Origin: Planctomycetota bacterium | Lineage (GTDB): Bacteria; Planctomycetota; Brocadiia; Brocadiales; Brocadiaceae | Reading direction: 5' to 3' | Length of the DNA stretch: 43,237 bases | NCBI GenBank assembly: GCA_016235875.1 | Contig: JACRII010000068.1 | Coordinates: 1-43,237, forward strand | Part shown: one piece after another, positions 2,235 through 9,160 of the stretch | How the letters are laid out: every line of letters begins with the position of its first letter | How positions within the stretch are numbered: position 1 is the first letter of the stretch | The notes under the pieces: model-generated | The model's input: only the letters and a program-made list of their open reading frames with translations | What the model was told of the DNA's origin: nothing | The model's database searches: none | Program-made: the position numbers and the translations under genes

Positions 2235-2276
2235 AAAAAACCTCCTGTCGAAACTATTGCTTCAACAGGAGGTTTC
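2235..2276 (-). terminator. Second (backup) hairpin terminator after fluoride riboswitch 1
   Basis: On the minus strand, arms AAACCTCCTGT and ACAGGAGGTTT (2265-2275 and 2238-2248) pair around a loop, with a run of six T at 2240-2235. It follows the first terminator within a few bases, so read-through of the riboswitch terminator meets a second one before the P-II gene. Confidence 0.75.
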
Positions 2277-2277
2277 A

Positions 2278-2319
2278 ATAAAAAAACTCCTATTGAAGTA
2301 TCCAGCTTCAACAGGAGTT
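2278..2319 (-). terminator. Expression-platform terminator of fluoride riboswitch 1
   Basis: Hairpin arms at 2306-2319 and 2285-2298 (AACTCCTGTTGAAG with CTTCAATAGGAGTT on the minus strand) are followed by a T run. The 5' arm contains AACTCC, which is also the 3' pseudoknot strand of the aptamer. Aptamer folding and termination are thus mutually exclusive: ligand binding should prevent termination and turn the operon on. Confidence 0.85.
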
Positions 2320-2359
2320 ATCAGCTACAACGTAGCAGTTAGGCGAACTCCATCGCCTG
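2309..2359 (-). promoter_or_regulatory. Fluoride riboswitch (crcB motif) 1, upstream of the P-II/FNT operon
   Basis: The minus strand reads GGCGATGGAGTTCGCC, then CTGCTAC-gtt-GTAGC, then TGATAACTCC. This matches the fluoride aptamer fold: outer GGCG/CGCC pairing, a hairpin CTGCTAC/GTAGC, and a pseudoknot of GGAGTT with AACTCC. The element begins within a base or two of the expected transcription start of the promoter at 2395-2367 and overlaps a terminator. In known examples fluoride binding favours read-through. The genes behind it here are P-II, zinc ribbon, FNT and two unknowns. Confidence 0.9.
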
Positions 2360-2366
2360 AAAAAAT

Positions 2367-2395
2367 ATACTAAAGCTCCTAAATATTTTTGACAA
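2367..2395 (-). promoter_or_regulatory. Sigma-70-type promoter for fluoride riboswitch 1
   Basis: On the minus strand a -35 box TTGTCA (2395-2390) and a -10 box TAGTAT (2372-2367) are separated by 17 bases. The predicted start of RNA, near 2359, coincides with the 5' end of the aptamer, which supports the call. Confidence 0.7.
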
Positions 2396-2458
2396 TGATT
2401 AGCATTTTTGTCTTATACTTATAAATTCACACGCAGCCTCCATAATGCACAGAAACAT

Positions 2459-2659
2459 TCAAACCAGCCAGTCGTCCATACAAAAACAGCTTTTATTATC
2501 GAGCGTGTAATTACCGTTTCGTAAAATAATGCGATCATTATCTGACTTGTCATTTACAATCAAGTACATCATGAAGGCATCATACAAATCTAATTCTGTA
2601 TACTCAGCGCCTAATAGTCCAGCATTCTGGAGATCCTTAACGCCAATAACCTTTTCCAT
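2459..2659 (-). CDS. Unknown 66-residue protein behind fluoride riboswitch 2
   Basis: A 66-residue acidic protein with no signal peptide and no clear membrane span; the central stretch AFMMYLIV is hydrophobic, and the C-terminus carries CFC followed by MDDWLV. The ATG at 2659 is chosen because AGGAGGGG lies 6 bases upstream; a longer reading from 2716 would begin inside the riboswitch terminator zone and has no ribosome site. It is the only gene between the two fluoride riboswitches, so it should be made when fluoride is present. No known fluoride-response family is recognised. The ribosome site can pair with an upstream GCCCCT (2690-2685), suggesting a second, translational layer of control. 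Confidence 0.65.
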   Translation of the reverse strand: MEKVIGVKDLQNAGLLGAEYTELDLYDAFMMYLIVNDKSDNDRIILRNGNYTLDNKSCFCMDDWLV

Positions 2660-2662
2660 TTT

Positions 2663-2690
2663 GCCCCTCCTAATAAATTTGGACAGGGGC
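2663..2690 (-). promoter_or_regulatory. Hairpin that could hide the ribosome site of the 66-residue gene
   Basis: GCCCCT at 2690-2685 is the exact complement of AGGGGC at 2668-2663, which contains the core of the ribosome binding site just before the ATG at 2659. The 16-base loop is AT-rich. A weak hairpin, but placed where it could reduce translation. Confidence 0.4.
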
Positions 2691-2719
2691 GTTTGTTTTC
2701 GGAGTATAAAGCTCATAAC

Positions 2720-2760
2720 AAAAAACCCTTGTCAAAACCGTTGGCTCCGACAGGGGTTTT
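2720..2760 (-). terminator. Second hairpin terminator after fluoride riboswitch 2
   Basis: On the minus strand, AAACCCCTGTC pairs with GACAAGGGTTT (one mismatch) around a long loop, followed by a T run at about 2725-2720. It mirrors the tandem-terminator layout of riboswitch 1. Confidence 0.65.
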
Positions 2761-2764
2761 ATCA

Positions 2765-2806
2765 ATAAAAAAACTCCTATCGAAACATCTAGCTTCAATA
2801 GGAGTT
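2765..2806 (-). terminator. Expression-platform terminator of fluoride riboswitch 2
   Basis: Arms AACTCCTATTGAA and TTCGATAGGAGTT (2794-2806 and 2772-2784) are followed by seven T on the minus strand. The first arm overlaps the aptamer's pseudoknot strand AACTCC, so folding of the aptamer and termination compete. Confidence 0.85.
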
Positions 2807-2845
2807 ATCAGCTACAACGTAGCAGGTGGGCGAACTCCATCGCCG
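2796..2845 (-). promoter_or_regulatory. Fluoride riboswitch (crcB motif) 2, upstream of the 66-residue gene
   Basis: The minus strand carries GGCGATGGAGTTCGCC, CTGCTACGTTGTAGC and TGATAACTCC, nearly identical to riboswitch 1. All three structural parts of the fluoride aptamer are present, including the GGAGTT/AACTCC pseudoknot. The near identity of both the aptamers and the terminators suggests that one cassette arose by duplication of the other. Confidence 0.9.
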
Positions 2846-2866
2846 TAATATGTAAAATATTCTTTG

Positions 2867-2895
2867 ACTATAATAAGTATTTATTTTTTTGTCAA
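2867..2895 (-). promoter_or_regulatory. Strong sigma-70-type promoter for fluoride riboswitch 2
   Basis: A perfect -35 box TTGACA (2895-2890) and a near-consensus -10 box TATAGT (2872-2867) are 17 bases apart on the minus strand, in an A-rich spacer. RNA would start near 2860, about 15 bases before the aptamer. Confidence 0.75.
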
Positions 2896-3217: not shown

Positions 3218-4109
3218 ATGACAAAGTATATAGGATTGGATGCCCATTCGTCAACATGTACATTCAATGTGACGGATGAAAGAGGGATGGAAGTAGACAA
3301 CACTACGATTGAGAGCAATGGTCGGCTTTTGGTGAAGTATGTGAGGGGAATAGAGGGTGTTAAGAAACTGACGTTTGAAGAGTGTGAATTAAGCAACTGG
3401 CTGTATGAGATATTGAGACCAGAAGTAGATGAGTTGATCGTATGCAATCCTGTAGCAAACAAGGATTACCAGAAGATTAAGACGGACAAGATGGATGCCA
3501 GGAAGCTATCGAAGCTCTTGCGAGGAGGTTTTCTGATATCCGTGTATCATGATGGTTCAAGGAGGGAGCGGTTCAGGAGTTTAATGTCAGGGTATCAGGA
3601 TTTCATTGAAGAAGGGGTGAGGCTGAAGAACAGATACAAATCCTTATTTCGGAAAAGTGGGAAGAAAGTGAAAGGAGAATCGTTATATAACGATGAGAGT
3701 TTTCTTGAGGGATTAGAGCGAACAGACTTTAAATTTATTGGCACGCAGATATATCAGCTTTTAGAGAAGATGGAAGGGAGCAGACCGGAGAGGTTTAGCA
3801 GTAAGTACAAATATTACAGCTACTGTGGGTTGGTGAGGCATAAGAGGATAAGTGACGGGAGGGGATATGGGAGTGAGAAGATTTGGGGCAATCGGATATT
3901 AAAATGCGTATACAAGATGGCTGGACATTCGGTATTGAAAGGTAAGAGCGGTTTAAGGAACTATTACGATACCTTACGGTTGAAAGGTATCAGTCATGAT
4001 AATGCCTATAATGCAGTAATGTCGTAAGATAGCGGCAATAAGCTTGAGCGTATGGAGGAAGAGTGAGAAATATGATGACAGACTGATAACAGGCAATCTA
4101 ATCAAGTAA
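3218..4109 (+). pseudogene. IS110-family transposase, internally deleted and frameshifted
   Basis: The N-terminal DEDD domain is intact: YIGLDAH with D8, FEEC with E54/E55, and KTDKMDARKL with D90 and D93. The C-terminal Transposase_20 half follows (FSSKYKYYSYCGLV, then a serine before DGRGYG). At about residue 187 the two halves are joined directly, and the segment that normally carries a PGIG-type motif is missing, an in-frame loss of perhaps 25-40 residues. The frame stops at 4027 (AVMS-stop), but the +1 frame continues R-K-I-A-A to LITGNLIK and a stop at 4107-4109, the usual tail. A single inserted T after ATG near 4018-4022 explains this. The ribosome site GGAAGGAGG is good. Two lesions make it non-functional. 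Confidence 0.8.
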
Positions 4110-4460: not shown

Positions 4461-4520
4461 ATGACTATTATATTATATGTCAACTTATTTAAGGCGTTTA
4501 CTGTAGTATTAAGTAATTTT

Positions 4521-5513
4521 ATGAGTTTACCATCTTTTCTACCACTCTTGATTACCGGTGTAACAGGGGTGCCCGGTTACAGTGCCTTTCAGTATTTTCA
4601 CTCAAAATATCCAAACCACGTTGTCGGCATTCGTCCCGTCCGATACTGGCCGCTGCGGGAGAAGGGGATCATCCCTCTGGATATAGAAGACCACAAGGGG
4701 CTTGCGGCTTTGATGAAACAGAAGCGGTTCAAATCTGTTTTAAATGGGGCAGGGTCGTGCGCCTTGAAGTCTTGCGAAATGAATCCTGTGCTGGCGTATC
4801 GTGTGAATGTGCAATCGGCCTTAAATATAGTGGAAGTGATTTCTAGTCATGATATTCGATTGATACATCTTTCTACAGACCTGGTATTCCCTGGAAAATC
4901 AGAGGGGCTCTATACAGAAGAAGACGCAGTGTCACCCGTCACAATGTATGGCAAGACTATGGCGATAGCCGAAGAGATTATTATGCTGAAAAATCCTGCA
5001 GCTGCGATTTTCCGGATATCGCTTCCCATGGGAAGCAGCGTCAATGGGCATGCAGGGGCGATTGATTGGATACTGTCCCGGTTTAAAAAGAATAACCCAG
5101 CCACCTTATATTTTGATGAGGTCCGATCGCCGTTTTATTGCGAAGATTTCAATGAAGTCACAGAACAGGCCCTCGGGAATAAAATCAGGGGTATTTATCA
5201 TCTTGGTTCTCATCGGCATCTCAGCCTTTATCAGATAGGACAGATCGTAAACAAGGTGGGCGGATATGCCCCGCATCTGTTAAAAGGCTGCATGCGAAAG
5301 GAAGCAGGCCCTATGCCCCCAAGGGCCGGAAACGTTACGATGAACAACAAGAAGCTTATCCAGGCATTAGGAACAGACCCGTTTCGCAAGTGGCCTTACC
5401 TTGAACACCATGTTCCTGGCGGGAGAGACTGGCATTACGACCGCCCTTCTCATTGGATTTTTCATCCCGAACAGATTCATAAATGTTTGTATAGAATTCC
5501 TGTGGCGTGCTGA
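4521..5513 (+). CDS. RmlD-like NAD(P)-dependent sugar-nucleotide reductase/epimerase
   Basis: A short-chain dehydrogenase of the extended type, most like dTDP-4-dehydrorhamnose reductase (RmlD). The N-terminal nucleotide motif GVTGVPG follows a beta strand (LPLLIT), and the catalytic region shows LSTDLVFPG with YGKTMAIAE (the YxxxK pair). The C-terminal part (HLGSHRHLSLYQIG) resembles the substrate-binding domain. The ATG at 4521 places the Rossmann motif 10 residues from the start; an ATG at 4461 is also open but adds 20 hydrophobic residues of unlike character. About 330 residues is longer than the usual 290-300, the extra being at the C-terminus. It stands alone next to the IS110 remnant, with no other nucleotide-sugar genes nearby, so its substrate is uncertain. 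Confidence 0.75.
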   Translation: MSLPSFLPLLITGVTGVPGYSAFQYFHSKYPNHVVGIRPVRYWPLREKGIIPLDIEDHKGLAALMKQKRFKSVLNGAGSCALKSCEMNPVLAYRVNVQSALNIVEVISSHDIRLIHLSTDLVFPGKSEGLYTEEDAVSPVTMYGKTMAIAEEIIMLKNPAAAIFRISLPMGSSVNGHAGAIDWILSRFKKNNPATLYFDEVRSPFYCEDFNEVTEQALGNKIRGIYHLGSHRHLSLYQIGQIVNKVGGYAPHLLKGCMRKEAGPMPPRAGNVTMNNKKLIQALGTDPFRKWPYLEHHVPGGRDWHYDRPSHWIFHPEQIHKCLYRIPVAC

Positions 5514-7320: not shown

Positions 7321-8241
7321 TTACTTTTTATCGGGGAAAAAGTCCTGTTTCACACTAAAAGATAAGTTAAGGTGAGGCCGTAAATAGACAAACCAGAACA
7401 TTATTCCAACCAGGATAACTCCCCCTACGATGTTACCCAGAGTAACCGGGAAAAGATTATTTACAAAAAATCCCCTCCAGGTAAGTTGGGAGAGGTCCAA
7501 GGTTTTTCCTGCCATTTTTTCAGCAGCCGCAACTACTTCAGGATGTTTTTTTAATACCACACCCATGGGAATGAAGTACATGTTTGCAACACAGTGCTCA
7601 AATCCACTGGCAACGAAACCTCCGATGGGGAAAACAATCGAAAGGATTTTGTCTGCCACGCTCCTGCCGCTGAAACATAACCAGATAGCAAGGCATACCA
7701 TTGCGTTACAGAGGACGCCCCTTGCCAGGGCAGCCGAAAAAGAGAGATTGACCTTTGTGTTGGCGATAAGCAGCGCCTTTGCGCCGACCATATTGTGAAA
7801 AAATTCCCATTGATGGGTTTGAGACATCCAGCAGACCATCGTCAGACTGCCCACTAAATTCCCGGCAAATGAAACGATCCAGTTATTGAGCATATCACGC
7901 GTCGAGATCCTTTTACTAATATAACCCATAATAATTAAACAATTGCCCGTAAAGAGTTCCGCGCCGCCAACTACGACTAACATAAGTCCGAGGGAGAAGA
8001 CAATGCCTGCAATCAGAGAGTTAAGCCCAAAGTGCAGAGTGGAGTCGCTCGTTACAAAGGTGGCGAATTGTGCGCCAATGGCAATATAGACTCCTGCTAA
8101 TATTCCCAGTAAAAAAGTCTGTGCAAAGCTTAATTTTGCCTTTACCAGGGCGACTTTGTCAATTCGGGATGCGATCAGCGGAGGTGAATAGGCATCGATA
8201 TCGATAACCTGGATAGATTTTGGAACTTTATTTTCTGCCAT
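7321..8241 (-). CDS. Formate/nitrite transporter (FNT) family channel, copy 2
   Basis: A 306-residue six-helix channel of the FocA/NirC family. It contains GAQFATFVTSDSTLHFG, GGAELFTGNCL, CFSGR and GFEHCVANM with the central histidine. It is closer to copy 1 (576-1508) than to copy 3, with long identical stretches such as HNMVGAKALLIA and KMAGKTLDLSQLTW. RBS AAGGAG is well placed before the ATG. It lies 19 bases after copy 3 and is the last gene before a strong terminator, so FNT3 and FNT2 form one transcript. Nitrite uptake or export is the likely role if this is a nitrite-respiring organism; formate and hydrosulfide remain possible. Confidence 0.94.
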   Translation of the reverse strand: MAENKVPKSIQVIDIDAYSPPLIASRIDKVALVKAKLSFAQTFLLGILAGVYIAIGAQFATFVTSDSTLHFGLNSLIAGIVFSLGLMLVVVGGAELFTGNCLIIMGYISKRISTRDMLNNWIVSFAGNLVGSLTMVCWMSQTHQWEFFHNMVGAKALLIANTKVNLSFSAALARGVLCNAMVCLAIWLCFSGRSVADKILSIVFPIGGFVASGFEHCVANMYFIPMGVVLKKHPEVVAAAEKMAGKTLDLSQLTWRGFFVNNLFPVTLGNIVGGVILVGIMFWFVYLRPHLNLSFSVKQDFFPDKK

Positions 8242-8260: not shown

Positions 8261-9160
8261 TTATCTCTTTGATGGACGCAAATAGATAAACCAATACACA
8301 CCCGCAACCAGAACGATACCACCGAATAAATTTCCAAGGACGACAGGGAACAGGTTATCAATCAAAAAACCTTTAAAGAACGTGAGATTCGAAAGGTCTA
8401 ATTTTCCGCCGTGAAACTTTTCTGCGGCCGCCAGTACGGCGCTGTTGCCTTTCAGAACAAGCCCCATGGGAATAAGCCACATATTAACAACGCAGTGTTC
8501 GAATCCGCATGCTATCAGACAGGAGATAGGCCAGAGTAATGCCAGTATCTTATCCATATTGCTTCTGCCACTGTAACATAACCAAATACCCAAACATACC
8601 AGGGCATTGCAAAGCACACCCCTGGCAAAGGCAGCGCCAAATGGGATATTCACCTTGTCATTGGCTGCAAGGACAATTTTAGCGCCCAAGAGATGATTAC
8701 TGATTGTCCATTGTTTTGAAACGTATATCCATAAAACAAGGGTTAATGCGCCAATAAAGTTGCCGATAAATGCTATAATTAAATTTCTGGCAAGGTCTTT
8801 ACCGGTAATTTTTCTGGCCATAAAAGACATCGCAATAAGACAATTTCCCGTAAAGAGTTCTGCGCCGGCTATTACGATTAAAACTAGGGCTAAGGTAAAA
8901 GCCACACCGCCCACCAACTGATTTAGACCATAATTAGAGGTAGCGGTATGTGTTACTAACATGGAGAGTTGAATACCCAACGCAATAAAAACACCGGCAA
9001 GAATACTTAGGGCGAATGTAGTTAATGTACCGAGTTGCGATTTCGCAACGCCAACATGCCCCACCTTATCGGCCATCTTTGCCGGAGCATAGGCATCAAT
9101 CTCAATCACTGGTGCGGCATATTCCTGATTGTTTGTACTGCCAGTCTGCGTATCAGCCAC
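8261..9160 (-). CDS. Formate/nitrite transporter (FNT) family channel, copy 3
   Basis: A 299-residue FNT channel, more distant from copies 1 and 2: it has LVTHTATSNYG where they have FVTSDSTLHFG, and GFEHCVVNM rather than GFEHCVANM. The central histidine and the GAELFTGNCL and CYSGR motifs are kept. The start is GTG at 9160, with AAAGGGGG upstream; no ATG is better placed. The gene follows the TDT-family channel gene by about 150 AT-rich bases, which may hold its own promoter, and precedes FNT2 by 19 bases. Divergence in the selectivity region suggests a different substrate or direction from copy 2, which is inference. Confidence 0.93.
   Translation of the reverse strand: MADTQTGSTNNQEYAAPVIEIDAYAPAKMADKVGHVGVAKSQLGTLTTFALSILAGVFIALGIQLSMLVTHTATSNYGLNQLVGGVAFTLALVLIVIAGAELFTGNCLIAMSFMARKITGKDLARNLIIAFIGNFIGALTLVLWIYVSKQWTISNHLLGAKIVLAANDKVNIPFGAAFARGVLCNALVCLGIWLCYSGRSNMDKILALLWPISCLIACGFEHCVVNMWLIPMGLVLKGNSAVLAAAEKFHGGKLDLSNLTFFKGFLIDNLFPVVLGNLFGGIVLVAGVYWFIYLRPSKR

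Follow-up and report, generated by a model that had tools for sequence, protein, structure and literature searches.

Serial fluoride riboswitches with double terminators in anammox-family planctomycetes: a predicted terminator relay and a link to a dynamin-like protein

The window analysed here is a stretch of 43,237 nucleotides from a Planctomycetota bacterium (contig JACRII010000068.1). Exactly two matches to the fluoride riboswitch model RF01734 were found in it using cmscan, both on the minus strand and both of full length (model positions 1-64): aptamer A, the upstream copy, at 2853-2792 (42.7 bits, E = 1.1e-08), and aptamer B, the downstream copy, at 2366-2305 (50.0 bits, E = 4.7e-11). 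Since both exceed the gathering score of 34 bits, the covariance-model search proposed along with the original prediction of two fluoride riboswitches confirmed it for each copy. The motifs quoted in that prediction (GGCGATGGAGTTCGCC, CTGCTAC/GTAGC and AACTCC) were found in both cassettes. The start-to-start spacing of the aptamers is 487 bases, and they stand ahead of different genes, encoding a 66-aa protein and a PII protein, in agreement with the earlier description of two copies less than 500 bases apart.

Each aptamer is followed by two hairpins on the minus strand, the second of which has a U-tract. Terminator 1 (T1) of cassette A (2772-2806; 5' arm 2806-2793) and that of cassette B (2285-2319), both identified by terminator search and folding, have a 5' arm that begins with AACTCC, hence the pseudoknot strand of the aptamer overlaps the expression platform in both cassettes, as had been proposed. 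The second hairpin, which had also been anticipated, forms terminator 2 (T2) at 2723-2759 in cassette A, where 2752-2730 was called as a terminator and the hairpin with its U-tract was folded, and at 2238-2275 in cassette B, where it was recognised by folding and is followed by TTTTTT. In total, three terminator-like sites were found in the region by the search, compared with 1.0 expected from shuffled sequences. In the Bacillus cereus fluoride switch, an intrinsic terminator is disrupted in a fluoride-dependent manner (PMC8752731). By homology to that switch, the assumption that both elements are ON switches operating by antitermination appears well founded, because a fluoride aptamer recognised by a sequence-structure model shares its pseudoknot strand here with a terminator. 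We thus regard the identity of the switches as secure by homology.

The genes behind the switches are also encoded on the minus strand. The first one after cassette A is that of the 66-aa protein (family c3, 2459-2659), preceded by the ribosome binding site GGAGGGG at 2670-2664. Homologues of this protein were found in 14 of 33 genomes of the anammox family, with dN/dS of 0.05-0.20 where it could be calculated, and on these grounds the short reading frame is judged to be a real gene. Its product gave no fold match in the PDB with an AlphaFold model of pLDDT 89.5. Cassette B is followed by a gene for a PII protein of the GlnB/GlnK type (1845-2183; Pfam P-II, 2.6e-32), a small zinc-ribbon-like protein carrying two CxxC pairs (family c5, 1519-1779), which is kept in other fluoride loci and matches no Pfam family above the cut-off, a formate/nitrite transporter, FNT (576-1508; Pfam Form_Nir_trans, 1.7e-71), and a 139-aa protein (family c8, 139-558), also kept in fluoride loci. 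No Pfam family was found for either the 66-aa or the 139-aa protein. The PII protein has Phe and Trp at the T-loop positions that we take to correspond to Tyr-51 and Tyr-46 of E. coli GlnB, respectively; because of these replacements, its control by uridylylation looks unlikely. Two more FNT genes lie in tandem on the minus strand (7321-8241 and 8261-9160), about 5 kb from the riboswitch-controlled one, and carry no riboswitch.

To place the locus in its family, we used 33 genomes of the anammox family (Brocadia, Kuenenia, Loosdrechtia and relatives). Aptamers were present in 23 of these, one to three clustered copies in each and 41 in total, and the named homologous loci belong to Candidatus Brocadia, Kuenenia, Loosdrechtia and groundwater Planctomycetota, which places the window in this family or close beside it. 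The gene that comes first behind the 41 aptamers encodes a dynamin-like protein in 14 cases, the 66-aa protein in 11, a 275-aa protein in seven, PII in three and the zinc-ribbon protein in two, the remaining four being other genes or contig ends. The placement of the 66-aa gene between two close aptamers recurs in two further genomes, G012 and G039. The tandem layout is therefore typical of the family and not a chance oddity; the original prediction had called it uncommon, whereas tandem copies as such are common in these bacteria. What is unusual is the gene set and a possible coupling of the two terminators, neither of which figured in that prediction. Several individual loci depart from this arrangement. 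In G034 (L048 7463-7649), only about 125 bases, without a gene, separate two aptamers; T1 and a remnant of T2 are left at the first, and the second has lost its terminators. The 66-aa gene is found without an aptamer or a dynamin gene in G024 (C185:730-918) and, in a broken form, in G042 (C588:1865-2033), which suggests decay of the locus. The dynamin-like gene of G015 is split into pieces (L035 6844-7807), so that in some lineages the module appears to be in decay.

T2 is present in 34 of the 41 family elements and missing from seven; outside the family, none of the few aptamers whose core could be located by pattern showed a double terminator, several loci being unreadable in this way. In the same number of elements, 34 of 41, the 3' arm of T1 can pair with the 5' arm of T2. 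The resulting helix, proposed from folding and family covariation, would span 2745-2786 on the minus strand in cassette A (2786-2772 with 2758-2745, 13 pairs) and 2260-2299 in cassette B (2299-2285 with 2273-2260). When AACUCC was blocked and the 3' arm of T2 had not emerged, the calculated energy of this relay helix in cassette A was -18.4 kcal/mol, compared with -8.4 kcal/mol for the remaining T1 stem. In the same state, a relay helix of at least 8 bp was the minimum-energy structure in 34 of 34 elements, and was on average 12.3 kcal/mol better than what remained of T1. Complete T2 together with the inner T1 stem reached about -22 to -37 kcal/mol, whereas the relay helix reached -13 to -24 kcal/mol, and the barrier from relay to T2 was estimated at about 8.6 kcal/mol on average. 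Since the completed T2 is thermodynamically better than the relay helix, a relay could work only kinetically.

From these calculations, a mechanism may be proposed. Without fluoride, T1 would form and halt RNA polymerase, and T2 would catch the leak. With fluoride, the pseudoknot GGAGUU/AACUCC would hold the 5' arm of T1, so that T1 fails; the freed 3' arm of T1 would then pair with the emerging 5' arm of T2 and delay T2 long enough for read-through. One aptamer would in this way control two terminators by a kinetic relay. If this is right, a coupled double terminator is a compact way to cut the leak while the ON state is kept. A different role for the 5' arm of T2, as a decoy that pairs with the aptamer loop, is disfavoured: T2 carries ACCCC instead of ACUCC in nearly all copies.

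The strongest rival of the relay is a simpler one, to which we give somewhat less than even odds: the riboswitches may be ordinary, T2 being an unregulated back-up terminator or a relic of duplication, and its complementarity to T1 a by-product. The arms of T1 and T2 are alike in sequence, T2 probably arose by duplication of T1, and complementarity between the 3' arm of T1 and the 5' arm of T2 is expected from such an event by itself. The advantage of T2 over the relay helix once it is complete also fits this explanation, and within the main clade the complementarity of own pairs was not significantly above that of cross-pairs (permutation p = 0.09). However, a strong unregulated T2 would depress the ON and the OFF state equally, and yet T2 has been kept in the 34 elements. 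The covariation of the relay helix, which derives from few independent events, mainly in one clade (Kuenenia and a neighbouring genus) and in cassette B, scored 0.172 compared with 0.141 for shuffled alignments, and none of the 500 shuffles reached it. Its positions were paired in 89.3% of cases, most failures coming from a single column that is mismatched (A/C) in 31 of 32 sequences, and four pairs had changes on both sides. T1 and T2 each covary as expected. The reciprocal pairing, between the 5' arm of T1 and the 3' arm of T2, should follow from duplication equally well, yet it was weaker than the relay duplex in 25 of 34 elements and showed no excess of double changes: it had a single double-change pair, a count reached by 420 of 500 shuffles, and its covariation score was reached by 14 of 500. 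In alignment columns 40 and 39, moreover, the 5' arm of T2 follows the 3' arm of T1 despite an unchanged 3' arm of T2, with which it is left in wobble pairing. Cassette B shows a double change from G-C to A-U relative to the family, by which the relay pair is kept and T2's own pair becomes U-G. Weighing the folding models and the covariation together, we put the existence of the relay from T1 to T2 at about even odds.

A second issue is whether the two cassettes are transcribed separately. Upstream of aptamer A, a sigma-70-type promoter was found on the minus strand at 2867-2895, consisting of TTGACA (2895-2890), a 17-nt spacer and TATAGT (2872-2867) and agreeing with the consensus at 11 of 12 positions. 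Directly upstream of this promoter, separating it from an RmlD-like gene (4461-5513), lies an IS110-type transposase gene (3218-4027, plus strand). According to the original prediction, each cassette has its own -35/-10 pair, which would make it an independent transcription unit. The first pair is indeed strong; the downstream one, TTGTCA-17-TAGTAT (2367-2395, minus strand), is weak (9 of 12) and not clearly above chance, shuffled versions of its region containing 4.6 promoter-like sites on average. That a pair with 17-nt spacing precedes aptamer B, and that the same pair is found in G012, speaks for independent units, but no clear promoter was found at the equivalent place in G039. Across the anammox family, an exact TTGACA was located within 90 nt upstream of 23 of the 24 first cassettes with readable upstream sequence and of only 2 of 16 distal ones, and its lack in the other 14 makes independent transcription, in our opinion, the less likely arrangement. 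As distal copies generally have no promoter, the downstream copy probably acts as a gate within the operon of the upstream one. Judging from this promoter distribution, gating is probably serial, and the distal aptamers are probably internal gates of one transcript and not independent cassettes; the distal genes would therefore need fluoride to be sensed more than once. In the window, cassette A would drive the gene of the 66-aa protein, and cassette B, which would receive polymerase mainly through read-through or from a weak promoter, would gate the genes of PII, the zinc-ribbon protein, FNT and the 139-aa protein, whose expression would require fluoride sensing twice.

Taken together, both elements are best interpreted as predicted fluoride-responsive ON riboswitches that act by antitermination, stand in series in one operon and carry a relay from T1 to T2; we assign this reading a probability of roughly 0.7. 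A drift of the aptamers to a different ligand, or a loss of function in these copies, is very improbable: directly ahead of ACUCC the clade does have an A in place of the G of the Rfam consensus, its CGC segment occurs as the variant UGC, and some elements of the family have degenerated and carry no terminators, but the scores lie well above the cut-off, the loop and the pseudoknot are intact, the G-to-A change replaces a U-G contact with the loop by U-A and so keeps the pairing, and in other lineages consensus-like fluoride aptamers accompany this gene family at loci that include CrcB, enolase and an Na+/H+ exchanger.

The identity of the regulated genes was less expected. Control of a fluoride exporter is typical of RF01734, though no requirement, and it was not seen here: no CrcB was found in the 33 family genomes by a search that was positive in 10 of 14 controls, and no CLC gene adjoins the aptamers, CLC proteins (fluoride-type or other) being encoded elsewhere in some of the genomes. 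A third aptamer in the genome of the window (G000:C189:216-277) precedes instead the genes of a dynamin-like protein of about 600 aa and a zinc-ribbon/HEAT protein. The former contains a Dynamin_N GTPase domain (PF00350, 6.9e-28, score 98.2 with a cut-off of 27), and its best PDB match is the bacterial dynamin-like protein BDLP (E = 6.2e-26). The 275-aa protein found behind seven aptamers is a GTPase-less stalk paralogue of it, with 48% identity over 253 aa. In a profile search, the dynamin was found with very strong E-values in all 23 genomes that have aptamers and in none of the 10 without; dynamin and aptamer are jointly absent in at least three genera, and the relatedness of the genomes inflates any probability calculated for this co-occurrence.

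A scan of GTDB genomes for the dynamin-like protein, which used the protein only and was not conditioned on RNA, yielded five distant homologues with 32-34% identity from Deltaproteobacteria, Syntrophales, Desulfobacca and Thermodesulfovibrionales. A fluoride aptamer was found just upstream in four of the five, in metagenome-assembled genomes of the sulfate-reducer type, and the fifth gene lies near a contig end. In these loci, aptamers also stand before CrcB, before an Na+/H+ exchanger and, with a small gene pair in between, before formate-THF ligase; the neighbours include enolase and UspA (both identified by sequence and not through a family search) and a HEAT/zinc-ribbon protein. One deltaproteobacterial genome has five aptamers within about 4 kb (L098 1888-5859), located before CrcB, before the small genes that lie ahead of formate-THF ligase, and before the dynamin-like gene. 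In five genomes of a sister planctomycete family, a pattern search allowing one mismatch detected no aptamer before the five dynamin homologues; hence the link between dynamin and aptamer is not absolute.

The functions that we ascribe to the gene products in the fluoride response are hypothetical. The genes may form a module for the fluoride response in which a dynamin-like protein and FNT take the place of CrcB. What would be new is such a fluoride regulon, centred on dynamin and free of CrcB, and the probable coupling by which two terminators answer to one aptamer. It is a good deal more speculative, and on balance unlikely, that the full architecture, with its arm-to-arm relay and serial units, serves a CrcB-free fluoride defence by the dynamin-like protein and accessory proteins, perhaps with FNT as a channel for fluoride/HF. 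If it does, fluoride defence has a membrane-remodelling arm, tied to one kind of riboswitch in at least two bacterial phyla, a notion absent from the literature passages at hand. Anammox bacteria would then offer an example from nature of how fluoride is sensed where the standard exporter CrcB is missing, with relevance to fluoride-rich groundwater and wastewater. Our literature search found no paper joining the fluoride riboswitch with anammox or dynamin, and on tandem or double terminators in riboswitches only unrelated papers; as most subscription literature lay outside the search, prior mention of either is possible.

In the passages of a recent review on which we draw (PMC11139923), the genes linked to fluoride riboswitches include exporters, Na+/H+ antiporters, pyrophosphatase, enzymes of the haloacid-dehalogenase fold, enolase and formate hydrogen lyase. 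Enolase, CrcB and the Na+/H+ exchanger of the deltaproteobacterial loci agree with this list, and FNT in the anammox family together with formate-THF ligase in the deltaproteobacterial loci fits its formate theme. In contrast, the dynamin-like protein, its GTPase-less paralogue, PII, the HEAT/zinc-ribbon protein and the 66-aa protein are not named among the classes in those passages, and the word "dynamin" does not occur in the review. With the known bacterial dynamin-like proteins (BDLP, 2j68/2j69; the Campylobacter DLP pair, 5owv; IniA, 6j72), the protein described here shares a Dynamin_N GTPase domain and a long helical part; it differs from them by its putative fluoride regulation, as judged from the aptamer, and by often being accompanied by a stalk-only paralogue. 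The riboswitch of the B. cereus type (RF01734) has the same aptamer fold and the same sharing of the pseudoknot strand with the 5' arm of a terminator (PMC8752731), whereas here each aptamer is followed by two terminators with arms that can cross-pair, two cassettes stand in series, and the genes behind them encode the 66-aa protein and PII, zinc-ribbon protein and FNT (elsewhere dynamin), not CrcB or EriC. As in other tandem riboswitches, such as the glycine tandem aptamers, more than one aptamer of a single class would lie on one transcript; unlike in those, every aptamer comes with two terminators of its own, and genes are located between the copies.
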